A DNA stretch of 64,000 nucleotides from Levilactobacillus brevis (lineage in GTDB: Bacteria > Bacillota > Bacilli > Lactobacillales > Lactobacillaceae): assembly GCA_003666485.1 (NCBI GenBank), contig CP032931.1, positions 1,674,001-1,738,000 on the forward strand, written 5' to 3'. The position numbers and the translations under genes were made by a program. The notes beneath the pieces are model-generated. The model was not told the origin of the DNA. It did no database searches and was given only the letters and a program-made list of their open reading frames with translations. Of the stretch, positions 2,012 to 64,000 are shown piece by piece. How positions within the stretch are numbered: the stretch's first letter is position 1; every line of letters starts with the position of its first letter.

Positions 2012-3184
2012 ATGAATGAACTTACCACAGAAATTATCGCTGCACTAGCCCAAAAGCAAGATTTGGACGAAATTTTTCGGCAACATTTGGAAACGGCCAT
2101 CAATGATTTAATGCACGAGGAACTTTCATCGTTCCTCGGTTATGAACCCTACGACCGCCAAGGTTTTAACAGCGGCAATTCACGCAATGGGCATTATCTG
2201 CGAACCTTTAAAACTAAGTATGGGGAACTAAACTTGAAGGTTCCACGCGACCGAAATGGCATCTTTAATACGCAAACTATTCCAAGCTATCAACGCCAAA
2301 CGGATGGTTTAGAAGCCACGGTTGTCCAGCTCTACGAAAAAGGGATTACCACTAGTGAGATCGCGGATTTGATTGAGAAAATGTATGGCGCTCATTACAC
2401 ACCACAAACGGTTTCAAACCTCACGAAGGTCGTTGACCAACAGGTCAACGCCTTCAAGACGCGCCCTCTAGCGAGCCGTTACGCAGTCATTTATGTGGAC
2501 GCAACATACTTACCTCTGCGCCGGGACTCAGTGGCTAAAGAAGCCGTGCATATCGCCATTGGCATTCGACCAAATGGGATGAAAGAGGTCCTAGCATATC
2601 AAGTCGCTCCAACTGAATCCAGTACCGTTTGGGAAGAACTTCTCGTGGACATCCAGCAGCGTGGTGTAAAAGAAGTCCTCTTATTCGTGGCCGATGGCTT
2701 AGTCGGCCTTACCAACACAATTGGTGACCACTTCCCTAAGGCTAAGCTCCAGCAGTGCCTGGTCCACGTCAGCCGGAACATTGAAGCTCACGTTCGAACT
2801 AAGGACCGACAAGAGGCCCTTAACGACTTCAAACTGATCCATCAAGCAGCTACCATGGACGACGCAAGACAAGCTTTAGCTGACTTCATAGACAAGTGGC
2901 AAAAGACGTATCAAAGAGTAACGGGCAAGCTAGAAAATAATCCTCATCTCTTGACCTGTTTCACGTTTCCAGCTGCGATACGCAGTAGCATCTACAGCAC
3001 AAATCTCATTGAGTCGTTCAACAAGAAGCTAAAACGGCAGACAAAGAAGAAAGAACAATTTCCAAATGAACCAGCACTAGAACGAGTTCTGGTCACAGTT
3101 ATTCGTGACTACAACGGCCAAAATTTTGAGCGAACGCATCGAGGTTTCAAGCAAATTCAGGATACGTTAGAATCCATGTATTAG
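2012..3184 (+). CDS. IS256-family (mutator type) transposase
   Basis: A 390-residue transposase, the normal length of the family. The catalytic triad can be placed at Asp163 (YVDATYLPL), Asp228 (VADGLVGL) and Glu334 (NLIESFNKKLK), with the Cys249-x2-His252 signature (QQCLVHVSRN) between the second Asp and the Glu. The N-terminal zone with SGNSRNGHYLRT and KYGELNLKVPRDRNG is the family DNA-binding part. All key residues are present, so the enzyme is predicted active. Expression is probably limited by the hairpin over its ribosome site. The gene ends 52 nt before the right end of the element. Confidence 0.95.
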   Translation: MNELTTEIIAALAQKQDLDEIFRQHLETAINDLMHEELSSFLGYEPYDRQGFNSGNSRNGHYLRTFKTKYGELNLKVPRDRNGIFNTQTIPSYQRQTDGLEATVVQLYEKGITTSEIADLIEKMYGAHYTPQTVSNLTKVVDQQVNAFKTRPLASRYAVIYVDATYLPLRRDSVAKEAVHIAIGIRPNGMKEVLAYQVAPTESSTVWEELLVDIQQRGVKEVLLFVADGLVGLTNTIGDHFPKAKLQQCLVHVSRNIEAHVRTKDRQEALNDFKLIHQAATMDDARQALADFIDKWQKTYQRVTGKLENNPHLLTCFTFPAAIRSSIYSTNLIESFNKKLKRQTKKKEQFPNEPALERVLVTVIRDYNGQNFERTHRGFKQIQDTLESMY

Positions 3185-9185: not shown

Positions 9186-9295
9186 GAAAAATTCCTCCTT
9201 AAAGTAGTTAACTAAAGCTTGCAAGCGCAGAAACATTTGCTAATACACAGCTGACAAGGATTCTGGACATTAGATTAGCGAAACCAGGAGCCTAC

Positions 9296-9488
9296 GTCAG
9301 CCAGGGTTCCGCCTGCTATGGGGAACACCTCCAGACTGAGGGGCGGTCTTCCGGTTCGCTTGAAAGCCTGACAGAACCAGTCAGTCTTTCAAGTCGTCCC
9401 ACGCTGTAGGCTGAGAAAAAACCTCAGCCAACGCCGTCGACACAGCTGGCTACACCCTGGCTGCCTCCGGCAAGTTAGTACTTGCCAG
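9296..9488 (+). repeat. Structured element B, copy 1
   Basis: About 190 nt closed by an outer stem CAGCCAGGGT (9298-9307) with ACCCTGGCTG (9454-9463). Inside are a nested hairpin CTTGAAAG/CTTTCAAG (9359-9366/9386-9393) with CTGAC/GTCAG within it, and a hairpin GGCTGAG/CTCAGCC (9409-9415/9423-9429). A 3' hairpin GGCAAGT/ACTTGCC (9469-9475/9480-9486) follows. The inverted second copy at 16713-16912 keeps the loops nearly unchanged but uses different paired bases in several stems. Unknown function; either a structured RNA or a mobile palindromic element. Confidence 0.8.
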
Positions 9489-9546
9489 TAACACTGCGTT
9501 GGATTTCGTAGAGCTAATTGGCAAAGCAGCTGCTACCGTGGGCTAA

Positions 9547-9753
9547 GCCAGTTATTACTGGCAAGAACTTTTGTAGCCGAGAGTGAGCTAAATTTGGACT
9601 CAGCCGTGGGAGTTTTCAAGTGAATTGCTTGGAAACTGGCGTCTTCGAGACGTGATTTTCGGCTCGAAGCGAGGTTGAAGACCGACTTTTGGCTTCGACC
9701 GGTCCTTCCCACAGCGTCACGGTCCAAATTTGGCGAACGGTAAGGCGGCCAGC
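9547..9753 (+). repeat. Structured element A, copy 1
   Basis: About 207 nt with a long closing helix GCTAAATTTGGAC (9587-9599) to GTCCAAATTTGGC (9722-9734), then GTGGG/CCCAC (9606-9610/9708-9712). A variable hairpin AGTTTTCAAG/CTTGGAAACT (9611-9620/9628-9637) follows, then GCGTCT/AGACGT (9639-9644/9648-9653). Conserved flanks are ACTTTTGTAGCCG on the left and GGCGGCCAGC on the right. Copy 2 at 16316-16536 has the same order of helices with compensating substitutions. I do not recognise the family. Confidence 0.82.
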
Positions 9754-10172
9754 GCGGACAAAGTTGCGTTCAAAAACTAACTTGTCGCTATAGGCCCTGT
9801 AGGCACAATGAATCTGGCTACTTGTAATCTTTAAGTAAGACTAGTTGCCATTACTATAGCACAATTGTGGGGCTAATCAGTCGGAGGTATGTCGGTTTTT
9901 GGGTCGCGAGGCATTCGTTACCGATAAATCAGCAAAGTTTGCTAGAATAGAGAGTGAGTGTTGACTGTTAAACTGACAGTGATTTTTGTCGACGAGGTCT
10001 GGCTGATGGGGGCTTGCCAGCGGTCCTGAATTAGAGTTAATTGTCGCCCAATGGTTACCGTCCACCAAATTGATTGAAGAGTCATCAGCTTGGTAGGTGG
10101 TAGGCGGCCAGCACACGCTGTCTTGTAGCAGCGATGAGTTAAGCGAAGCGTATTAAAAAAGGAGATGCCAGT

Positions 10173-10871
10173 ATGGCACATGAACATCATCACGAATCAA
10201 TCGAACAGGAACTGGAGTGTGTCTCACAGGTCCCAATCTTTCAGCGGTTGGCAGCTGACCAATTGACGTCGGTCGCCCAGGTCACGCGGCCCGTTTTGGC
10301 GAAGAAGGGTAGAACCGTCTTCAGTACGGGCGAAGTGTCCCAGACGTTGTACATCGTGAACGTGGGTCAGGTCCGCCTCTATCATTTGACAGAAGACGGC
10401 CACGAACAGGTCTTGCGGGTCCTGAATCCGGGCGACTTTATTGGCGAAATTGCGTTGTTCACGGATGAAATTCATTCGTCCTACGCGGAAGCCACCAAGG
10501 ATAGTGAATTGTGCACCATCTCGCGTGCCTCCCTGACGGCGTTGATCAAGGACATGCCGCAGTTGTCCATGGCCTTATTAGGCGCTCTAGCGGATCGCTT
10601 GAAGACCGCAGAACGGCAGGCGACCTTACTAGCCATTCCGGATGCCTTGCCGCGTTTGGCGGGATATTTACAAGAAATCAGTGGCCATCAAGCCGGTGTG
10701 ATCGACCTGCCAATGAGCAAGCAAGACCTGGCAGCTTACCTGGGAATGACGCCCGAATCCTTGAGCCGCAAGCTACGACAGCTAGTCAAGGACGGGGTGA
10801 TCGAGACGATTGGTCGCCGACAAGTAAAGGTTTTGGATAGCACGGAACTGGCCGCAGTCGCCCCAGAATAA
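10173..10871 (+). CDS. Crp/Fnr-family regulator, FLP type
   Basis: A 232-residue transcription factor with an N-terminal cyclic-nucleotide-like beta-barrel (residues ~25-135, GDFIGEIALFTDE) and a C-terminal Crp-type helix-turn-helix (MSKQDLAAYLGMTPESLSRK, ~175-195). It has only two cysteines, Cys16 and Cys114, the arrangement described for the Lactobacillus casei FLP protein. There a reversible disulfide, not an iron-sulfur cluster, controls DNA binding under oxidative conditions. No FeS cysteine cluster is present. It is transcribed alone, divergent from the dipeptidase, after the long structured intergenic region. Target genes are unknown. Confidence 0.88.
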   Translation: MAHEHHHESIEQELECVSQVPIFQRLAADQLTSVAQVTRPVLAKKGRTVFSTGEVSQTLYIVNVGQVRLYHLTEDGHEQVLRVLNPGDFIGEIALFTDEIHSSYAEATKDSELCTISRASLTALIKDMPQLSMALLGALADRLKTAERQATLLAIPDALPRLAGYLQEISGHQAGVIDLPMSKQDLAAYLGMTPESLSRKLRQLVKDGVIETIGRRQVKVLDSTELAAVAPE

Positions 10872-11016
10872 TGGCGGGGTTAGCTATCCCTTAAGAATCC
10901 TTAATAATATGGTATTCGCCAAATAAATTTGCTAAAATAATGGGTGTTGTGTTTCATTTACTTTAATGGACGACTAAATTAGACTTTAAATTAATTAGGA
11001 AAAAGGGGATACGCAC

Positions 11017-12900
11017 ATGTGTGGATTCGTTGGCTACGTGAATCAAAAAGATGTTCCGACTAACACCATCAATAGTATGGCAGATCGGATTAAGCACCGG
11101 GGGCCGGATGATGAGGCTTATTTCCACGACGAACAGGCCGTGATGGGGTTCCGTCGGCTGTCGATCATTGACTTGGCCCATGGGAAGCAACCGATGTACA
11201 ACCGGGACCAAACGAAGGTATTGACCTTTAACGGTGAAATTTATAACTATCAAGAAATTCGGGCCGACTTACAAAAGTTGGGCTACGAATTCCAAACGGA
11301 CGTGGATTCTGAAGTGCTGATTCACGGGTACGACGCTTGGGGTCCAAAATTGCTGGACCGGTTACGGGGGATGTACGCCTTTGTGATCTATGACAAGACG
11401 ACCAACGAAGTCTTTGGCGCGCGTGACCACTTTGGTATCAAGCCACTTTACTACTATGACGATGGCGACACCTTCTTATGGGCGTCAGAAATCAAGGCGT
11501 TCTTGGAACATCCAAACTTCAAGAAGGAATTCAACGAAGCGCTCTTGCCAATTCACTTGAGCTTTGAGTTCATTCCATCACGAGACACCATGTTCAAGAA
11601 TGTCTACAAGGTCTTGCCTGGCCAATACTTCATTCACCACGCCAACGGGGAAACGGAAACGCACCGTTACTTCAAGTTCAACTACGATCACATTGACAAC
11701 AGCCAAACGGTCGAAGAAGATGCCAAGAAGATTCGCGGTATCGTTGATGAATCCGTCAAGGCCCACATGATCGCCGACGTGGAAGTGGGGAGTTTCTTAT
11801 CTAGTGGGATCGACTCCTCTTACGTCTTGAACGAAGCCTCCAAGTTAAAGCCAATTCAATCCTTCTCTTTAGGGTTCAAGAACTCCAAGTATAGTGAGTT
11901 GAGTTGGTCAACGGAATTTGCCAAGGAGATCAAGCAAAAGAACACGCCATTGTACATGACCGGTGACGATTACTTTGATATCTTGCCAACCATCATGTAC
12001 TACATGGATGAACCACTGTCCAACCCATCAGCGATGCAGCTGTACTACCTGTCCAAGGGGACGCGGAAATCCGTGAAGGTGGCCTTGTCTGGTGAAGGGG
12101 CCGATGAATTCTTCGGGGGCTACAACACCTACCTGGAAGCCATTCCATTTGAACGTTACCAAAAGTGGGTGCCAAAGGGCATTCGCAAGATGTTGGGTGG
12201 CATCGCGGAGAAGTTCCCACGGTTCCATGGCCGTCGGTTCTTAGTCCGGGGCGCCCAACCACTGAGCGAACGGTACTACCGGGTCAACTACGTCTTTGAC
12301 TACCATGATCGCAACAAAATCTTGAAGAACCCGAGCCTGAACCAAGACGCTGGGGCCTACACCAAGCATTTGTTCGATGACGTGAAGGGCTTAGACGAAA
12401 TGACGCAGATGCAATACTTTGACATCAACACCTGGTTACCTTATGACATCTTGCACAAGGCCGACCGGATGAGTATGGCCAACTCGCTTGAAGTGCGGAC
12501 GCCACTGGTCGATAAGGAAGTTGCCAAGTTTGCGGCCACGATGCCCGTTAAGACGCGGATCCACGCCGATGAAACCAAGGTTTCTCTGCGGACCGCAGCT
12601 GAGGCCGAATTGCCAGAACGGGTAGCGAAGAAGGAAAAGATGGGCTTCCCATCCCCAATCGCTACTTGGATCAAGACGGAACCTTACAAGTCACGGATCA
12701 TCGAAGCGTTCAACTCCGACGTGGCTCACAAGTTCTTCAATACCGACGCATTGATGGAAATTCTGCACGAACATATCAATGGGAAATCCAGCATGCAAAA
12801 GATCTTTACCATTTACACGTTTATTCTGTGGTATGAAGTTTACTTCCCAGAAGACACGACGGCAAAGACGGTCGATTTGGTTCGGCGCACGCAAGTTTAA
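11017..12900 (+). CDS. asnB: Glutamine-hydrolysing asparagine synthetase (AsnB/AsnH family)
   Basis: A 627-residue two-domain enzyme. The N-terminal class II glutamine amidotransferase domain starts directly with the nucleophile Cys2 (MCGFVGYV) and has RLSIIDL and FNGEIYNY. The C-terminal ATP-pyrophosphatase domain has LSSGIDSSYV and LSGEGADEFFGGY. It converts aspartate to asparagine using glutamine and ATP. In lactococci and L. casei a paralogue (AsnH) amidates the D-Asp side branch of peptidoglycan. The next two genes make and attach D-Asp, so the AsnH role is plausible. Sequence alone cannot separate the two substrates. Length and motifs are complete. Confidence 0.9.
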   Translation: MCGFVGYVNQKDVPTNTINSMADRIKHRGPDDEAYFHDEQAVMGFRRLSIIDLAHGKQPMYNRDQTKVLTFNGEIYNYQEIRADLQKLGYEFQTDVDSEVLIHGYDAWGPKLLDRLRGMYAFVIYDKTTNEVFGARDHFGIKPLYYYDDGDTFLWASEIKAFLEHPNFKKEFNEALLPIHLSFEFIPSRDTMFKNVYKVLPGQYFIHHANGETETHRYFKFNYDHIDNSQTVEEDAKKIRGIVDESVKAHMIADVEVGSFLSSGIDSSYVLNEASKLKPIQSFSLGFKNSKYSELSWSTEFAKEIKQKNTPLYMTGDDYFDILPTIMYYMDEPLSNPSAMQLYYLSKGTRKSVKVALSGEGADEFFGGYNTYLEAIPFERYQKWVPKGIRKMLGGIAEKFPRFHGRRFLVRGAQPLSERYYRVNYVFDYHDRNKILKNPSLNQDAGAYTKHLFDDVKGLDEMTQMQYFDINTWLPYDILHKADRMSMANSLEVRTPLVDKEVAKFAATMPVKTRIHADETKVSLRTAAEAELPERVAKKEKMGFPSPIATWIKTEPYKSRIIEAFNSDVAHKFFNTDALMEILHEHINGKSSMQKIFTIYTFILWYEVYFPEDTTAKTVDLVRRTQV

Positions 12901-12904
12901 TTTA

Positions 12905-12976
12905 ACCGGCCCGTCAACGTGACGGTGCCGATCATGATCAAGGTTGCTATTGGACTCGTCCGCTAACAACCTTGAT
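12905..12976 (+). terminator. Two hairpins downstream of asnB
   Basis: A GC-rich hairpin GGCCCGTCA-acg-TGACGGTGCC (with one bulge) is followed by a second stem ATCAAGGTTG (12937-12946) with CAACCTTGAT (12967-12976). The T-tract after the second stem is poor (TGTGTTTACTT). It may attenuate rather than stop transcription into the D-Asp ligase gene. Confidence 0.45.
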
Positions 12977-13041
12977 TGTGTTTACTTAGCAATTTTTGTT
13001 TCAGAGAAATCAAGTACGTTGTGAAGGGACTTTAATTCGTT

Positions 13042-14298
13042 ATGGAAACCAATGGAGTAAAATTCACTCCCGTTTTATTGGGGAGCGACTTTAACGTTTA
13101 CGGGATGGCGCGGTCATTTTATGAGCTGTATCACCAACCCGTTCAGGCCTTTGCCAGCATTCAGCTCGCACCGACCCGCTACACCAAAGTTGTTAACTTG
13201 GAATTGATTCCGGGATTCGATGAGGACCCCGTGTGGATCGAAACCATGCGCAAGCTGAAGGAACGCTACGCTGACCACCCAGAACCCGTAATTTTGATTG
13301 GGTGCGGGGATGGCTACGCCGAGCTGATCAGTAAGCACAAGGCTGAGCTGGAAGATGTGTTCATTTGTCCGTACATCGACTATGATCAGTTGCGGCACCT
13401 GAACAACAAGGAAAACTTCTACAGGGTCTGTGACCAATACGGCTTGCCATACCCGGCAACGCGGATCATCACCAAGGCTGAAGCCACCAGCGACCAACCG
13501 GTAGAACAACCCTTCGATTACCCGGTCGCCTTGAAGCCAGCCAACAGTGTAGAATGGTTGGATGTGCATTTCGAGGGCCGCAAGAAGGCGTTTCGGATTC
13601 GGTCCGAGGCAGAATTCCGTGACATCTTGCAAAAGATCTACGCCAACGGCTACCAGTCCGACCTGATCTTGCAAGACTTCGTGCCCGGGGATGACAGCAA
13701 CATGCGGGTGTTGAACGCCTACGTGGACCGCAACCATCACGTCAAAATGATGTGTCTCGGTCACCCGTTGCTGGAAGATCCCGCACCATCGGCCATTGGC
13801 AATTACGTGGCTATCATTCCGGAATACAACGAGACCATTTACCACAACATCCAGAAGTTCTTGGAATCCATCAATTTCACTGGCTACGCCAACTTCGATA
13901 TGAAATACGATGTGCGTGACCAGTCGTTCAAGCTGTTTGAAATCAACCTGCGGCAAGGGCGGAGTAGTTTCTTCGTGACGCTCAACGGCTACAACCTCGC
14001 CGATTGGGTCGTGAAAGACTACGTCAAGGACAGCCTTAAGGACGCGCCAACGGTCTACGGCAACCAGGATGAAAGTAAGCACGCCTTGTGGCTGGGGGTA
14101 CCGGTCAAGGTCTTCAAGCGTTATACGCGAGAAAATGCCGACAAGGAACGCGCCCTCAAGCTGATTGCGGCGGGCAAGTATGGCACGACGTATCGTTACG
14201 ACCAAGACATGAACCTGAAGCGGTGGGCCTTGATCCAATGGATGCAACACAATTACACGGTTAATTTTAAGAAGTATTTCGCAGAAAATAAGGGGTAA
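13042..14298 (+). CDS. ATP-grasp D-aspartate ligase (Aslfm type)
   Basis: A 418-residue ATP-grasp enzyme with the nucleotide-binding segment YPVALKPANSVEW and the metal-binding block FKLFEINLRQGRSS near residue 300. It fits the Aslfm family, first described in Enterococcus faecium, which joins D-aspartate through its beta-carboxyl to the epsilon-amine of Lys3 in UDP-MurNAc-pentapeptide. An adjacent aspartate racemase supplies the substrate, which strongly supports the call. The enzyme is cytosolic with no membrane segment. It starts at ATG 141 nt after asnB and ends 5 nt before the racemase gene. Confidence 0.85.
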   Translation: METNGVKFTPVLLGSDFNVYGMARSFYELYHQPVQAFASIQLAPTRYTKVVNLELIPGFDEDPVWIETMRKLKERYADHPEPVILIGCGDGYAELISKHKAELEDVFICPYIDYDQLRHLNNKENFYRVCDQYGLPYPATRIITKAEATSDQPVEQPFDYPVALKPANSVEWLDVHFEGRKKAFRIRSEAEFRDILQKIYANGYQSDLILQDFVPGDDSNMRVLNAYVDRNHHVKMMCLGHPLLEDPAPSAIGNYVAIIPEYNETIYHNIQKFLESINFTGYANFDMKYDVRDQSFKLFEINLRQGRSSFFVTLNGYNLADWVVKDYVKDSLKDAPTVYGNQDESKHALWLGVPVKVFKRYTRENADKERALKLIAAGKYGTTYRYDQDMNLKRWALIQWMQHNYTVNFKKYFAENKG

Positions 14299-14303
14299 CT
14301 ACC

Positions 14304-15014
14304 ATGCAAAAATTCTTTACGATTATTGGTGGAATGGGCACCATGGCGACCGAAAGCTATCTACACCTGTTAAATCAGCGGACGCCCGCCCATGCCGATC
14401 AGGAGTACTTGAATTATATTTTGGTCAACCACGCCACGGTACCGGACCGGACGGCCTACATTTTGGATCACAGTCAGCCCAATCCGTTGCCAAGCCTGCT
14501 GGAGGATATCCACCAGCAGAGCCAGCTGGGCCCAGCGTTTTTCACGTTGCCATGCAACACAGCGCACTACTTTTATGATGACCTGCAGGCGGCGACCGAC
14601 GTGCCACTGCTGCACATGCCCCGCGAAACGGTGAAGGAGATCTTACGCAAGTATCCGAACGCCAAGCGCATTGGGATCACCGGGACGCAAGGGACCATCA
14701 CGGATAAGGTCTACGAACATGAGGTGCTGGCCGCGGGCTTGACGCCGGTGTTGCCGACCGATGAGATCGAAGCGGAGACCATGGACTTGATCTACGATAA
14801 CATCAAGGAAAAGGACCACGTGGACCCCGTGCTCTATCACCGCATTTTAAAGCAAATGATTGACGAGCAGGGCGCCGACATTGTCATTCTCGGCTGCACC
14901 GAACTGTCATTGGCCCAGGAACGAGAACCCGAAACTGAGTTGCCGATAGTGGATAGCCAATCTATCCTGGTCGACCGGACCTTGGAATTGGCCTTGAAGA
15001 TGCGAGAAGCCTAA
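14304..15014 (+). CDS. racD: Aspartate racemase
   Basis: A 236-residue cofactor-independent racemase of the Asp/Glu family. The two catalytic cysteines are in place: Cys84 in LPCNTAHYF and Cys198 in LGCTELS. The N-terminus IGGMGTMATE is the substrate-binding loop typical of aspartate rather than glutamate racemases. It makes D-Asp for the ligase encoded 5 nt upstream, forming the peptidoglycan cross-bridge. It is the last gene of the operon, followed by a strong terminator. Confidence 0.9.
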   Translation: MQKFFTIIGGMGTMATESYLHLLNQRTPAHADQEYLNYILVNHATVPDRTAYILDHSQPNPLPSLLEDIHQQSQLGPAFFTLPCNTAHYFYDDLQAATDVPLLHMPRETVKEILRKYPNAKRIGITGTQGTITDKVYEHEVLAAGLTPVLPTDEIEAETMDLIYDNIKEKDHVDPVLYHRILKQMIDEQGADIVILGCTELSLAQEREPETELPIVDSQSILVDRTLELALKMREA

Positions 15015-15020
15015 CTAAAA

Positions 15021-15070
15021 ACGCGACGCCGCAACTTTCCGAATGGGAGGTTGCGGCGTCGCGCTTTTTT
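15021..15070. terminator. Strong GC-rich terminator after racD
   Basis: GCGACGCCGCAAC (15023-15035) pairs with GTTGCGGCGTCGC (15050-15062), followed by GCTTTTTT on the plus strand and preceded by an A-run that serves the minus-strand dehydrogenase gene ending at 15081. Confidence 0.93.
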
Positions 15071-15080
15071 GATGGGACAC

Positions 15081-16097
15081 TTAATCGTTGACATCAATGA
15101 CGACTTTAAGGGCTGTTTTGTCGGTGTTGGCCCGGTGAAAGGCCTGCTCGCTCTCGGCTAGTGGATAGTGGGCAGAAACGATGTCAGGAAAGAGGTTAGC
15201 TGGCTTGACAACGTTCGCAATGGCTTCTTGAATATCCGTGGCGGTGTAGATGGCTGAACCAATCAGACTGATTTCGTTCATGGCCAGAAATTGCGGCTTG
15301 AACGTGACGGGTTCGGCCCCCAAGGCAACGACCACAAATTTAGCGTCGAACTTAGCCTGGGCGATGAAATCGGTCATGAAGCTAGGAAGGCCGACACAGT
15401 CGATATAGGTGTCAACGCCGATACGTTCGTCACCCATGAGGCCGCTACCGGTACCGAATAGGGCTTTCAAGGCAGTCGGCAGATCGGTCTTAGCCGAATT
15501 GATCACGTGGGCCCCTAAACGCTTAGCAAAAGCCAGTCGTTGGTCGTCGATATCCACAACGGCAACTTGGGTGATCCCTTGCTCCAACAGCCCTGAAGCA
15601 CTGGCCAGACCAACTGGCCCAGCCCCAAAGATACAGAAGCTTTGATTGGGTGTGGGGTGAACGATGTTCTTACCGTGAATGCCGACAGCGTAAGGTTCGA
15701 TGACAACGGCCCGGTCAAAGGCTAGATCTTTTGGCAAAAGAAAGACGTTGTCGTTCAACACGGCATTCTTAACGAGATTTAACTGAGATAGGCCCCCAGC
15801 CATTGCCAACTGACTGGTTGATCCCTTGGCACGACTGGGGTTGACGAAGACGTGGTCGCCGGCCTGAATGCCTTGCACGTTAGCCCCGACCTCGGCGACT
15901 TCACCCACAAATTCGTGGCCGAGTGCGCCTCCCTTGCGAATACCAATCTCATCGCCACCGAGATTGTAAGCATGGAGGTCAGAGCCACAGATACCGTTGC
16001 GCATGACCTTGAGTACCAGGTCATCAGCGGTTGGCTGGGGGACTGGGAGCTCTTCTACTGAAATGTCATGAATACCATGGTAAATAACGCCTTTCAT
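15081..16097 (-). CDS. Zinc-type medium-chain dehydrogenase without structural zinc lobe
   Basis: A 338-residue MDR-family oxidoreductase. Catalytic zinc ligands are visible as Cys37 (GICGSDLHAY) and His61-Glu62 (ALGHEFVG). The NAD(P)-binding Rossmann motif is FGAGPVGLASA. The four-cysteine structural zinc loop that usually follows residue ~85 is absent; the region reads FVNPSRAKGSTSQLAMAGG. Substrate is not predictable; relatives are annotated as sorbitol, butanediol or threonine dehydrogenases. The ATG used has AAGGAG at 8 nt; an in-frame GTG three codons upstream overlaps that ribosome site. It is a single-gene unit. Confidence 0.82.
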   Translation of the reverse strand: MKGVIYHGIHDISVEELPVPQPTADDLVLKVMRNGICGSDLHAYNLGGDEIGIRKGGALGHEFVGEVAEVGANVQGIQAGDHVFVNPSRAKGSTSQLAMAGGLSQLNLVKNAVLNDNVFLLPKDLAFDRAVVIEPYAVGIHGKNIVHPTPNQSFCIFGAGPVGLASASGLLEQGITQVAVVDIDDQRLAFAKRLGAHVINSAKTDLPTALKALFGTGSGLMGDERIGVDTYIDCVGLPSFMTDFIAQAKFDAKFVVVALGAEPVTFKPQFLAMNEISLIGSAIYTATDIQEAIANVVKPANLFPDIVSAHYPLAESEQAFHRANTDKTALKVVIDVND

Positions 16098-16214
16098 TAC
16101 GTTCACTCCTTCACATATTCTTATCTTTAGGATAATTGATTGCAGGTTGAAAGTCTAGTTAAGCGTCGGTTGGCTAGCGTGCTTGCTAATGGCATTAATG
16201 CTACTTGCGTTAAT

Positions 16215-16248
16215 TCAGCCAGTAGAGGGATGTCTCGCTATTGGCTGA
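16215..16248 (+). repeat. Reduced element B (outer stem only)
   Basis: TCAGCCAGTAG (16215-16225) pairs with CTATTGGCTGA (16238-16248), followed by CTCTGGC. This matches the closing stem and right flank of element B (CTGGCTGACTCCGGC in copy 2) but the ~150 nt interior is missing, replaced by a 12-nt loop. Confidence 0.55.
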
Positions 16249-16315
16249 CTCTGGCTATCAATGATGGTGCAATAATCCACAGATTGCAGTGAGTTAGGTG
16301 GTACTGAGGGCCAAA

Positions 16316-16536
16316 CCAGTTGTTGATTGGCAATCACTTTTGTAGCCGGAGTCCGCCAAATATGGGTTCAGCCGTGGGAGTTACCTAAACGGCATGACTT
16401 TTCATGCCGTTTAGGTAACTGGCGTCTTTGAGACGCGGTCTTTCGGCTCGAAGGCGAGGCGTCGAGACCGATCTTTGGCTCGACCCGTCCGCCCACAGCG
16501 TTCCGACCCATATTTGGCGGACGGTAGGCGGCCAGC
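16316..16536 (+). repeat. Structured element A, copy 2
   Basis: The closing helix is 17 bp, GTCCGCCAAATATGGGT (16351-16367) with ACCCATATTTGGCGGAC (16506-16522). GTGGG/CCCAC follow (16374-16378/16492-16496). The variable hairpin is a perfect 19-bp stem, AGTTACCTAAACGGCATGA (16379-16397) to 16402-16420. Then come GCGTCT/AGACGC (16422-16427/16431-16436) and a stem beginning GGTCT and ending AGACC. The order equals that of copy 1 while the paired bases differ in the outer helix and variable hairpin. Confidence 0.85.
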
Positions 16537-16599
16537 CCTACTGTGTGGCTGTATGCAACTAGTTTTATCACGGCAACTTGTCGCCTGAATTTGAATGTA

Positions 16600-16632
16600 A
16601 AAAAGAGATTCGCAACCAAGGGCGCGAATCTC
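16600..16632 (-). terminator. Minus-strand terminator downstream of element B copy 2
   Basis: On the minus strand AGAGATTCGC and GCGAATCTCT form a perfect 10-bp stem with a 10-nt loop followed by TTTTTTAC. It would end a transcript coming from the DUF1516 gene through element B copy 2. Confidence 0.88.
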
Positions 16633-16712
16633 TCATATTAACAAGTCTTTAAGTGGAAGTCGAAATGTGGAAATCGACTAGAACAATTACGGTAATCTCT
16701 GATTTACACCAC

Positions 16713-16912
16713 GGTAACTGATAAGCACCAGCCCGCCGGAGTCAGCCAGCAGTGGAGCCAGCTGTGTCGGCCTAGTTAGCTGGCGTTTCTGGCCAGGTTA
16801 CTAGGCGGGACGACTTGAGAGACTGGCGGTTTTTGACAGGCTTTCAAGCGAACCGGAAGACCGTTTCTCAGTCTGGAGGTGTTCCCCAGAGCAGGCGGAA
16901 CTGCTGGCTGAC
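16713..16912 (-). repeat. Structured element B, copy 2 (inverted)
   Basis: The reverse complement aligns with copy 1 over its full length. The outer stem is GTCAGCCAGCAG (16741-16752 on plus) with CTGCTGGCTGAC (16901-16912), 12 bp perfect. The second hairpin is GCCTAGT/ACTAGGC (16770-16776/16800-16806) around CTGGC/GCCAG (16780-16784/16792-16796). Blocks such as GGTCTTCCGGTTCGCTTGAA and GGGGAACACCTCCAGACTGA are identical between copies, although they are mostly unpaired. Confidence 0.82.
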
Positions 16913-16953
16913 GGAGGCAATCTGGCCTCGCAAATCGCTAATCTGGTCGGCGC

Positions 16954-17295
16954 CTAATGAAAGGCCAAGGTCAATCCCAGGCCGACCGTCAGTAAGGCGA
17001 TGACGCCTAAAATCCAGTAAACCAGGTGCGGGGTGTCACGTTCCATTTTACGGCCAAAGCTGATTTCAATCAGGGCAATCGTCCCAATGCCGAGAATAAA
17101 TTTCAAGCTGATCAGCACGGGTGCGTGGCCAAAGGTACGGATGCTGAGGACGACGCCACTGATAATCATGACCAGATACGCGAGTCGCGCCAGGATTAGA
17201 AACTGCGTCGCTCGTTTCTCCGAGTGTCTCGTCAGACCAACGATGACTAAAATGGTTAAAATGATCCAGGTCCAAAAATGTAGCGCTAACCACAT
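16954..17295 (-). CDS. DUF1516 (YisL-like) membrane protein
   Basis: A 113-residue integral membrane protein with four hydrophobic segments, starting MWLALHFWTWIILTILVIVG and ending VIALLTVGLGLTLAFH. The WxxW-like start followed by LARLAYLVMIISGV and LKFILGIGTIALIE is the pattern of the UPF0344/DUF1516 family (B. subtilis YisL). Function in the family is unknown. A GAAGGAG site precedes the ATG. Its 3' region carries element B copy 2 and a terminator. Confidence 0.8.
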   Translation of the reverse strand: MWLALHFWTWIILTILVIVGLTRHSEKRATQFLILARLAYLVMIISGVVLSIRTFGHAPVLISLKFILGIGTIALIEISFGRKMERDTPHLVYWILGVIALLTVGLGLTLAFH

Positions 17296-59600: not shown

Positions 59601-62600
59601 GCTTCGACAGCAGCGATTGATTCAGCTGCTGCTTCCACTGCACAGGCAGCAAGTTCGGTTGCAAATTCATTGGTTTCAGCAATAAAGACCAACACTAGTT
59701 TGGGTAGTTCATATACTGCTGCAGCAGCGAGTTACGCTCAGGATGCACAGTACGCTGCTGCGACAGCTGATGCTGCGACGTCTGACGCCAATAGCTATAT
59801 GGCATTGGCATCTGCTGCTGTGGCCGCTGGAAACTTTGCCACGGCGAGTGAATATTCAACGGCAGCTGATGATGAGCTTGCAACCGCTGCTGAGATGGCG
59901 GTGAACGCCACGACAGCAGCAACGGCTGCTAGTGAGGCAGCTAGTTATGCAATTCAATACTCAAATGATATTAGTACCGGATATTCTTCTCCAACCGGTG
60001 ATGCTTGGGTATTGTGGGGCATTACAATGACGAATGGCTTCACGCAACAGCCAACGGCTTTGACTTCAACAATGTCAGGTGATACGGTCACGCTCACCGC
60101 AACAGCTAAGACAGGGCTAGTAGCGATAAACGTTTCCAATTCGGCAACATGGTATGCGCAAGTCAATGGCTCTTGGATGAAGGTTGGTACGGCTGCCTCT
60201 TCAGGAACGTTGACAGACACTGATGGCACAACAATTGGGACTTACAAAATTGTCAATAATACGAATTGGCTGAGTGGAGCAGCAACTTCATCAAGCACGT
60301 TGCAATTCACGACCAGTTCTGATTTTACAGGGACAATTGTCTTTCAATCCCGGAACCAATTTATTGGGACCAACGTGTTCGCATATTCCAGTAACTTGGC
60401 CGAAGTTGACGTTTATAGTAATGAAATTCCAGCAACTGGGATCTCGATTACTGGCGATGATTACATTTTGAATAATTCCTCAACGGCAAATAGTGGCTCT
60501 TATAAAGCGACGACAAATCCAGGAAATGCTACGGGTAACATCGTTTGGTCAATCAGTGATTCCAGCATCGCAACAATTGATCAAGATGGGACCGTGACGC
60601 CAGTAAATTCCAGTTCGACCGGAACGGTTGTTGTTACGGCAACTATCACCAACTCTGATGGAACGACCTATTCTGCTTCTAAGACGGTGACCATCGGAAG
60701 TGGGTTAGTTGATCAAACAGTTAGTGCAGGGGACTCTCTAACCTGGATACCAGCAACAAACTCAACAGGTTCGGGTTCAACTAGTGTGTCCTATCAGTGG
60801 TATTATTCATCAGTTGCCGGTACTCAGGGGACTGCTATTGATGGACAAACAAGTGCAAACTTGCAGTTAGATAATGTTACGGCAGCACAAGCGGGTTATT
60901 ATACGTTAGTTGTCAAGAGTGGGACGGCTTCAGTATCTCTTGGTCAAGGCTATTTAACGGTTAATGCCACGCAAACAGCCGGAGCATCGTCATCAGCTAG
61001 TCTGGCAACAGATGCTGCTAGCACGGCGTCAGATTACGCTAGCGTCGCAAACGACTATAGCGATGTGGCTTCGCAATATGCAAGTAAGGGATCAGATGCA
61101 AGTTCGTATGCTGGACAGGCATCGACTGCAGCATCAACAGCTACTTCAGCAGCCTCCGCTGCACAATCGGCTGCCGATGCCGCTAACTCAGCATATGCTG
61201 CAGCTTCTTCGGCTGAAGCGGGAGCAGATAACTCAGCGGCGCAAAGCTATGCAAGCCAGGCATCACAAGCAGCTTCTGCAGCACAAGAGGCGAAGGATCA
61301 GGCTTCCAGTGCCGCTGCCGACGCAAAGTCATATGCTAACATGGCGATTTTAGCTGATACTGATTCTGATAGCGACAGTGATAGTGAGTCTGATTCAGAC
61401 AGTGATTCGGACTCCGACAGTGATTCAGATTCGGATAGCGACTCAGACTCGGACAGCGACTCAGATTCCGACAGTGATTCCGATTCAGATAGTGATTCTG
61501 ATTCAGACAGTGATTCCGACTCCGATAGTGATTCTGATTCCGACAGTGATTCGGACACCGATAGTGATTCCGATTCGGACAGTGATTCTGACTCAGATAG
61601 CGACTCGGATTCAGATAGCGATTCAGATTCTGACAGCGACTCGGATTCAGATAGCGACTCCGACTCGGACAGTGACAGTGATTCGGATAGTGACTCAGAC
61701 TCGGACAGTGATTCCGACTCAGATAGCGATTCCGACTCGGACAGTGATTCCGACTCCGATAGTGACTCAGATTCGGATAGCGACTCAGATTCTGACAGCG
61801 ACTCAGATTCTGACAGCGACTCAGATTCTGACAGCGATTCCGATTCCGATAGTGACTCCGATTCAGATAGCGACTCAGATTCCGATAGTGACTCAGACTC
61901 GGACAGTGATTCGGACTCAGATAGTGATTCGGACTCCGACAGTGACTCCGACTCGGACAGTGATTCTGATTCCGACAGTGATTCGGACTCGGACAGCGAC
62001 TCAGACTCGGACAGTGATTCGGACTCAGATAGTGATTCGGACTCGGACAGCGACTCGGACTCAGATAGTGATTCGGATTCCGATAGTGACTCTGATTCAG
62101 ATAGCGACTCCGACTCAGACAGTGATTCCGATTCAGATAGCGATTCCGATTCAGATAGCGACTCGGACTCAGATAGTGATTCTGATTCCGATAGTGACTC
62201 TGATTCAGATAGCGACTCCGACTCAGACAGTGATTCGGACACTGATAGCGATTCTGACTCAGACAGCGACTCCGATTCCGACAGTGACTCAGATTCCGAT
62301 AGTGACTCAGACTCGGACAGCGACTCGGATTCCGATAGTGACTCAGACTCCGATAGTGATTCTGATTCCGACAGCGACTCGGACTCAGATAGTGATTCGG
62401 ACTCAGATAGTGACTCCGATTCCGACAACGATTCAGACTCAGACAGTGACTCCGATTCCGACAGCGATTCAGACTCAGATAGTGATTCCGATTCAGATAG
62501 CGACTCCGACTCAGATAGTGATTCGGACACCGATAGCGATTCAGACTCAGACAGCGACTCGGATTCCGATAGTGACTCCGACTCAGATAGCGATTCCGAT

Positions 62601-64000
62601 TCCGACAGTGATTCGGACTCAGATAGTGATTCGGACTCAGATAGTGATTCCGATTCCGACAGTGATAGCGATTCCGATTCCGATAGTGATTCAGATTCCG
62701 ATAGTGACTCAGACTCGGATAGCGATTCAGACACGGATAGTGATTCCGATTCCGACAGTGACTCAGATTCTGACAGCGATTCCGATTCCGATAGTGACTC
62801 AGATTCTGACAGCGACTCAGATTCCGACAGTGATTCCGATTCTGATAGTGATTCGGACTCCGACAGTGATTCGGACTCCGACAGTGACTCAGATTCAGAT
62901 AGCGATTCCGACACCGACAGTGACTCGGACTCAGACAGTGACTCCGACTCAGATAGCGATTCTGATAGCGACTCCGACTCGGATAGTGACTCAGATTCCG
63001 ACAGTGATTCAGATTCTGATAGCGACTCCGATTCCGACAGTGATTCGGACTCAGATAGTGATTCTGATTCCGATAGTGATTCGGACACCGACAGTGACTC
63101 AGATAGTGATTCTGATTCCGATAGTGATTCGGACACCGACAGTGACTCTGATTCTGATAGCGACTCTGACTCGGACAGCGACTCAGACTCCGACAGTGAT
63201 TCCGATTCCGATAGTGATTCCGACTCGGACAGTGATTCGGACTCAGATAGTGACTCTGATTCGGATAGCGATTCCGATTCGGACAGCGATTCAGATTCCG
63301 ATAGTGATTCAGACTCAGACAGCGACTCAGATTCAGACAGTGATTCGGACTCTGATTCGGATAGCGACTCAGACTCCGACAGCGACTCAGATTCAGACAG
63401 TGACTCAGATTCAGACACCGACAGTGATTCCGACTCAGACAGTGACTCCGATTCGGATAGCGACTCTGATTCTGACAGCGACTCCGACTCGGACAGTGAT
63501 TCCGACTCGGATAGCGACTCCGACTCCGACTCGGACAGTGATTCAGATTCCGACAGTGATTCAGACTCGGACAGTGACTCCGACTCAGATAGTGATTCAG
63601 ACTCCGACAGCGACTCTGATTCTGACAGTGACTCAGACTCGGATAGTGATTCTGATTCCGACAGTGATTCGGACTCGGACAGTGATTCGGACTCAGATAG
63701 CGATTCTGACTCCGACAGCGACTCCGATTCCGACAGCGACTCAGATTCAGATAGTGATTCCGATTCAGATAGCGATTCAGACTCAGACAGTGATTCGGAC
63801 ACCGATAGCGACTCGGACTCAGATAGCGATTCCGATTCTGACAGTGACTCAGATTCTGATAGCGATTCCGATTCTGACAGCGATTCAGACTCAGACAGTG
63901 ATTCGGACACTGATAGCGACTCGGACTCAGACAGCGACTCAGATAGCGATTCCGATTCTGACAGCGATTCAGACTCAGACAGTGATTCGGACACCGATAG
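56619..64000 (+). CDS. Giant serine-rich surface adhesin with SD repeats (partial, runs off the window)
   Basis: At least 2,460 residues, no stop reached. It starts GTG behind TAAGGAGG. The KxYKxGKxW-type signal motif KMYKVGKTW is at residues 18-26, with cleavage likely after AHA46. Then come a Ser/Thr-rich zone (~47-230) and long Ala/Ser helical repeats (~230-590). A beta-rich module follows (~594-724), then a second Ala-rich zone (~728-1110) and another beta module (~1115-1268). Next are a BIG2-like domain (~1269-1361, [20 protein letters not shown]), an Ig-like module (~1363-1449) and a third Ala-rich zone. From residue ~1580 on there are Ser-Asp repeats. By family knowledge it is exported by SecA2/SecY2, glycosylated on Ser and anchored to the wall by an LPxTG motif expected beyond the window. 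Confidence 0.9.
61356..64000 (+). repeat. Ser-Asp repeat region built from an 18-nt unit
   Basis: Over 880 residues of alternating Asp and Ser. At the DNA level Ser codons follow the order TCN, TCN, AGY, so the real unit is GAYTCNGAYTCNGAYAGY, 18 nt, with occasional 6- or 12-nt shifts. Rare changes are TCN to ACN (Asp-Thr), one AGC to AAC near 62426 and one early Glu codon at 61386. The array continues past the window edge. Confidence 0.95.

Follow-up and report, generated by a model that had tools for sequence, protein, structure and literature searches.

A dispersed family of inverted folded modules in Levilactobacillus brevis, probably a nonautonomous MITE-type transposon

In REP/BIME elements, palindromic units are arranged as inverted pairs beside gene ends, and the bcr1-type repeats of Bacillus cereus are structured mobile intergenic repeats of ~150 nt, for which we know of no two-module inverted arrangement. 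According to the accessible text of one report, REPs measure 20 to 40 bp (PMC3733652). The BOX, RUP, and SPRITE repeats of Streptococcus pneumoniae are described in the accessible part of another as dispersed, structured, slow-moving, and judged to be parasitic; they become thinner in S. mitis and are almost absent from other streptococci, with the exception of BOX-like elements in S. suis (PMC3049150). Bacterial MITEs such as QMITE2 and MITEAba12 are, in the portion of text available, short, noncoding, intergenic elements with terminal inverted repeats (TIRs) and target duplications (7 to 9 bp for QMITE2), for which structured transcripts are expected, and MITEs in general are usually AT-rich (PMC10969869).

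Here we analyzed a window of 64,000 nucleotides of Levilactobacillus brevis (CP032931.1, positions 1,674,001 to 1,738,000) that contains two copies of a structured repeat. This element has the traits just listed for MITEs, apart from the AT-richness, in common with them. It differs from them by a core of two homologous, inverted, folded modules with strong compensatory covariation that is conserved between genera, and by being GC-rich (54 to 60% GC for the half-elements in the window), with no parent IS found in the transposase loci covered. Like BOX, RUP, and SPRITE, the lactobacilli family consists of dispersed structured repeats, but, compared by the descriptions in that partial text, those occur in other bacteria and over a narrow range, whereas this family was found in 8 sampled genera. 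It shares with REP/BIME the inverted pairs of palindromic units adjoining gene ends but has units of ~190 nt, target duplications, and no correlation with a Y1 transposase. It also resembles the bcr1-type repeats as a structured mobile intergenic repeat, from which we set it apart by description and not by sequence. No earlier account of the element in lactobacilli was found in the literature covered, to which most subscription journals did not belong, nor in the accessible parts of PMC2267715, PMC2527527, and PMC10969869.

Two related modules and their conserved fold

The original prediction had placed two inverted copies of a structured element, B, at two loci that also carry an element A, thought to be unrelated. 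A covariance model (R1), built from 63 copies including the two window copies themselves, located B copy 1 at 9287 to 9474 on the plus strand (206 bits; E = 5e-48) and B copy 2 at 16732 to 16921 on the minus strand (213 bits; E = 1e-49). Both copies were thus found where predicted, and they align end to end with ~80% identity; their inverted arms are 81% complementary over 150 nt. The same model recovered both A copies of the window on the minus strand, one at 9573 to 9749 as the inverted partner of copy 1 (28 bits; E = 2e-5; placed at 9567 to 9753 by nhmmer with an A profile) and one at 16342 to 16532 at locus 2 (47 bits; E = 5e-10), which contradicts the supposed lack of relationship. As judged from these model matches, A and B are homologous and belong to one superfamily.

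At locus 1, the two inverted halves are separated by a spacer at 9475 to 9572 that lies between the covariance model hits and has the spacing typical of the family. Copy 1 is part of a nearly complete unit with decayed ends, and at locus 2 the B and A modules are oriented alike and have no recognized ends. The inverted arrangement prevails in the genome: for 52 of 75 B copies the nearest neighbor is an inverted A downstream, mostly 55 to 105 nt away; 15 copies have no neighbor within 500 nt, 4 are followed by an A in the same direction, 2 are followed by an inverted B, and 2 have a same-direction A upstream. Of 64 pairs of full halves that adjoin each other at a distance below 450 nt, 57 were in +- order, none in -+, 4 in ++, and 3 in --. 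In 20 loci of other genomes (three other genera account for 19 of these), we found 14 pairs in plus-then-minus order, 5 single modules, and 1 same-direction pair.

We drew a B structure of 59 pairs by hand, guided by a G-test with APC, on an alignment of 63 full copies (1 of 64 was left out because of a long deletion). In it, an outer stem is followed by a stem that contains conserved mismatches and then by two successive three-way junctions. In the 63 copies, 93.7% of the pairs are standard, compared to a mean of 84.6% after shuffling of the 3' letters and 28 to 47% when the structure was slid along the alignment, although the structure is favored over its slid versions by having been drawn from the same alignment on which it is scored. 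Changes on both sides were found in 38 of the 59 pairs, and the covariation score was 0.257 versus 0.101. Individually, B copies 1 and 2 fold with z values of -6.3 and -4.7, and for neither was any of 200 shuffles as stable. The B model is quasi-palindromic: its reverse complement is matched by it as well.

Between copies 1 and 2, both sides of the outer stem and of the distal hairpin have indeed changed, as had been pointed out; across the family, the distal hairpin occurs in two alternative versions and as mosaics of both. Two long blocks described as identical and single-stranded-looking are identical in the two copies, but family-wide they take part in covarying helices and are not single-stranded. 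Covarying helix columns inside them are 41-116, 44-72, 45-71, and 79-108, and their partners are columns 36 to 41 with 116 to 119, 44 to 46 with 70 to 72, and 76 to 89 with 98 to 112. The distal hairpin occupies columns 120 to 156 of the alignment of full copies (A2), and in its mosaics both arms of one segment are swapped together, for instance in L094, L071, and L093.

A match to a known Rfam family, which would have spoken against the original prediction, was not found: a search of the whole window with 4227 families at the gathering score returned two tRNAs and nothing for B, and at E values up to 5 no credible family for B appeared at four element loci. Near another B copy (L052, 4350 to 4567), a T-box-like match reached 63.7 bits, against a gathering score of 93 bits.

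The prediction further read the RNA on the minus strand from 16912 to a terminator at 16600 to 16632. The pairing data disfavor this strand. On it, A-C mismatch cells outnumber G-U cells by 89 to 21 in B, by 76 to 35 in A when its structure was drawn by hand, and by 62 to 31 in a third set, the copies from the 20 loci of other genomes. Only pairs that are at least 75% Watson-Crick were tallied (60% for the third set), and 4 of the 39 rows of the third set were dropped as self reverse-complement matches; of the 35 kept, 2 belong to the genus of the window. When independent gains were counted on trees, the ratio of A-C to G-U was 191:81 (79:21 for B, 55:32 for A, and 57:28 for the third set). 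Because an A-C on one strand is a G-U on the other, the reverse complement is the better folding strand, for each half separately, a conclusion that we hold with moderate confidence. With the RNAalifold pairs only, A gave the opposite sign (45 G-U versus 36 A-C). In addition, unpaired B columns show 11.5% G-to-A versus 4.1% C-to-U changes (5.6 versus 5.9% in A columns), and mutation may account for part of the B asymmetry. At well-paired positions, G-U makes up 0.6 to 3.2% on either strand, whereas 36 tRNAs of the same genome have 5.1% G-U and 0.4% A-C, and by this control the elements are less RNA-like than tRNAs. The hairpin with a T-run at 16600 to 16632 on the minus strand, read directly from the sequence, lies downstream of a minus-strand ORF (16954 to 17295). 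It is more simply explained as belonging to that gene than as the end of a B RNA and is probably its terminator.

Terminal repeats, target duplications, and unoccupied sites

Copies resembling copy 1 have ~90 nt in common on each side, with an inverted repeat at the end. This TIR (CTAAAGGTTGCAAG) is followed by one half, a spacer of ~90 nt, the inverted half, and the inverted TIR. The TIR motif TAACTAAAGATTGCAAG occurs at 33 genome sites with at most 2 mismatches (reversed control, 0). Within 150 nt inward of the TIR, a B or A match, in some cases a fragment, was present in 20 of 23 fetched loci, usually at 69 to 90 nt, and no such match was present in the remaining three (L278, L279, and L286). 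The exact 14-mer was found in 6 of 35 genomes of the genus and 21 times in the window's own genome. Starting instead from 57 B/A pair entries, which list three B copies twice, a clear TIR (at least 13 of 17 bases, where shuffled 150-mers gave 7 to 12) on at least one side was seen in 7; in most copies, the TIR is lost or was never present.

Units with two halves are about 560 to 755 nt long. In the window's own genome, units with two TIRs measure 605 to 749 nt between the duplications, and shortened ones measure 356 to 487 nt. The window unit is ~623 nt long, with a left TIR at 9209 to 9225 on the plus strand (TAACTAAAGCTTGCAAG; 16/17 match to the motif) and a decayed right TIR at 9821 to 9835 on the minus strand (CTTGTAATCTTTAAG; 14/17), and the ORF list has no entry of at least 100 aa from 9236 to 10173. 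A further unit may have left a decayed remnant at ~9956 to 10160, between copy 1 and the next gene, where pieces resembling the spacer and the outer end of A can be recognized by eye.

The 8 bases outside the TIRs of nine two-TIR units agree at 8/8 positions in three units, at 7/8 in two, and at 6/8, 5/8, 3/8, and 1/8 in one each. Five of the nine therefore carry an 8-bp target duplication matching at 7 or more positions, whereas random 8-mers from the window, which were not matched for A+T content, reach at least 7/8 at a frequency of 0.0004. The window unit itself is the one with 3/8 agreement and has no intact target duplication. TIR-bearing units also exist outside this genome. One of 595 nt in L. 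tongjiangensis (L162) is flanked by a shared 7-mer, GTAGTGA; one in L. angrenensis (L137) has ACGTTTAA on both sides (8/8); and one of 563 nt in another genus (L235) has the shared 7-mer ATGGTAA, all three duplications having been read by eye. Among 13 pairs in other genera, the TIR was clearly present only in L235.

Of the named relatives, L. angrenensis gave the best protein match. In the alignment with L137, the stretch at ~9206 to 9830 of the window is absent from the matching place. The gap between the genes at copy 1 measures 991 nt in the window, against 440 nt in L. angrenensis, and that at copy 2 measures 848 against 251 nt; in L. angrenensis neither gap is entirely clean, and remnants seem to be present. 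In 27 of 29 related loci the copy 1 gap was measurable, with lengths of 137 to 1208 nt; elements are present in each of the five gaps above 600 nt and in one of 545 nt.

Copy number, genomic setting, and candidate transposases

A profile search gave at least 75 or 76 distinct B copies in the window's own genome, depending on how duplicates were removed, 64 of them near full length. Each of two BLAST queries hit at least 40 places, and 46 sites matched a 19-base motif when up to 3 mismatches were allowed (reversed control, 0). We fetched 68 stretches of DNA around copies and 23 around TIR sites. These 487,004 nt of own-genome DNA hold 195 half-elements (A and B together), 162 of them at least 140 nt long, a count that is not an estimate of density because the DNA was picked for the presence of elements. 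Among the matches listed, all covariance model matches in this genome lie on the largest contig. The genes flanking a copy converge in 23 of 73 cases, diverge in 3, and run in one direction in 47 (convergent versus divergent, P = 9e-5, with crude ORF picking). The same crude picker made 37 of the 73 overlap an ORF of at least 80 aa, presumably spurious in large part. We take the neighboring genes to be those of a C69 peptidase, a CRP, and an ADH.

Copies in other genomes were confirmed by the covariance model search that the original prediction had suggested, and the element is dispersed over the chromosomes of many lactobacilli that ferment food. The model matched 32 of 35 genomes of the genus and was without a match in 3; in 17 of the 35 it gave at least 74 matches, which may include A and reverse-strand self matches. 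Across the bacterial family, 56 of 301 genomes in 8 of 40 sampled genera had a match. A search of the order found 17 of 395 genomes, of which 16 belong to the same family and one outside it is marginal (E = 6e-4). At E values up to 0.01, 15 of 80 named loci matched, including one from Secundilactobacillus. The copy 1 unit had no BLAST hit among 72,556 plasmid records or 50,697 phage records.

An end of the IS200/IS605 type, a match to which would likewise have spoken against the original prediction, would imply single-strand transposition without target duplication, and a subset of units carries duplications. A Y1/RAYT driver was rejected because Y1_Tnp does not correlate with the element over 35 genomes: it is absent from the B-rich genomes G002, G003, G009, G021, and G030 and present in the B-free genomes G012 and G025. 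An ISL3- or IS256-type parent was rejected on the TIR for the loci fetched, no site matching it better than 11/14 in 20 transposase loci (10 of 11 ISL3-type and 10 of 20 IS256-type matches). In 26 distinct gaps of 300 to 4000 nt between elements, the longest ORF was host-like by reading in most, and four gaps contained no ORF of 80 aa. At one locus (L063), the 2148 nt that separate an inverted A and B half contain, beside other ORF pieces, a transposase of 298 aa (DDE_Tnp_1_3; E = 1e-24; ORF at ~1273 to 2170, ~763.5 to 764.4 kb in the genome), and no TIR better than 11/14 was found there. This locus, the sole such case seen, is possibly an autonomous relative, or it may reflect the chance insertion of an IS.

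Two further features of the window were observed. An IS256-type transposase gene lies at 2012 to 3184; six places in the genome have an identical score, and the IS may have been recently active. At 61236 to 64000, a long array of 18-bp units (at least 142 register copies) probably codes for a repetitive surface protein.

A probable mobile element with a maintained fold

We consider it likely, with a probability of roughly 0.78, that the family is a nonautonomous, MITE-type transposon of Lactobacillaceae with a conserved two-module folded core that is moved in trans. A complete unit would consist of a 7- to 8-bp target duplication, a 14-bp TIR, ~75 to 90 nt, a folded module (B or A), a spacer of ~90 nt, the homologous inverted module, another ~75 to 90 nt, and the inverted TIR. 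An 8-bp target duplication is a hallmark of DDE transposases, and from the TIR together with the duplication we infer that a transposase of this type would drive transposition. Units would survive mostly next to the 3' ends of genes, and the modules would keep their two-junction secondary structure by compensatory change. The fold may be maintained because propagation involves reading it as a folded strand, probably as RNA and then as the reverse complement of the predicted strand, or alternatively because it makes insertions next to genes tolerable. What speaks against the MITE reading is that the modules are far better conserved than expected of a decaying MITE core, that the 20 fetched transposase loci yielded no autonomous partner with the TIR, that most B/A pairs, those of other genera included, have no recognizable TIR, that the half-elements are GC-rich, and that the L137 site is not entirely clean. 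A bolder version, in which the outward-reading strand of each of the two inverted modules would give rise to a folded RNA and the spread of the element would depend on these RNAs, seems quite unlikely to us; it is drawn by analogy with omegaRNA and bridge-RNA systems, but here there is no linked protein gene.

The original prediction took conserved loops with covarying stems as the mark of a functional structured RNA. The covarying, conserved fold is borne out, but a dedicated host RNA is not, since dispersal, TIRs, target duplications, and the unoccupied site argue for a mobile element instead. One could still picture a structured RNA that serves the host, as a 3' UTR stabilizer, a terminator-like element, or a regulator, and that spread by duplication, mobility being only the origin of the copies. 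The two-sided changes in 38 of 59 pairs, a pairing asymmetry that singles out one strand, the position of the copies mainly next to gene 3' ends, and the matches in 32 of 35 genomes of the genus all suit such an RNA. We nevertheless find it unlikely in view of the diverse genes in the gaps between neighboring elements, the uneven number of matches (at least 74 in 17 of the 35 genomes and zero in 3), and the presence of TIRs and target duplications.

The low G-U fraction (0.6 to 3.2%, against 5.1% in tRNAs) and the quasi-palindromic model, which matches its own reverse complement, would also fit an architectural element acting at the DNA level, such as a cruciform or a gyrase or nucleoid-protein site kept between convergent genes, and the copy 1 unit had no plasmid or phage hit. 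Against it stand the strand-specific mismatch asymmetry and the patchy presence across genera, with three species of the genus lacking a match, and we regard it as very unlikely. The missing plasmid and phage hits would also fit REP/BIME-like elements that a Y1 (RAYT/IS200-type) transposase moves in the form of single-stranded hairpins, and the inverted pairs and hairpins do resemble BIMEs. That explanation is largely refuted: the presence of Y1_Tnp does not track the element, target duplications exist, and the asymmetry, with A (by its hand-drawn structure) and B each read in their own orientation, goes the same way in both and so does not mark one strand of the unit.

On this chromosome, compensatory mutation preserves a complex fold in well over a hundred half-elements, and that fold recurs in several genera of lactobacilli, which is not expected of ordinary decaying MITEs. 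The covariance model can be used for masking and annotating such repeats. The family is also a warning that covariation alone in dispersed repeats is no proof of an RNA that serves the host. Whether the spread of a bacterial transposon requires a folded module of RNA or DNA can be tested concretely on this element.
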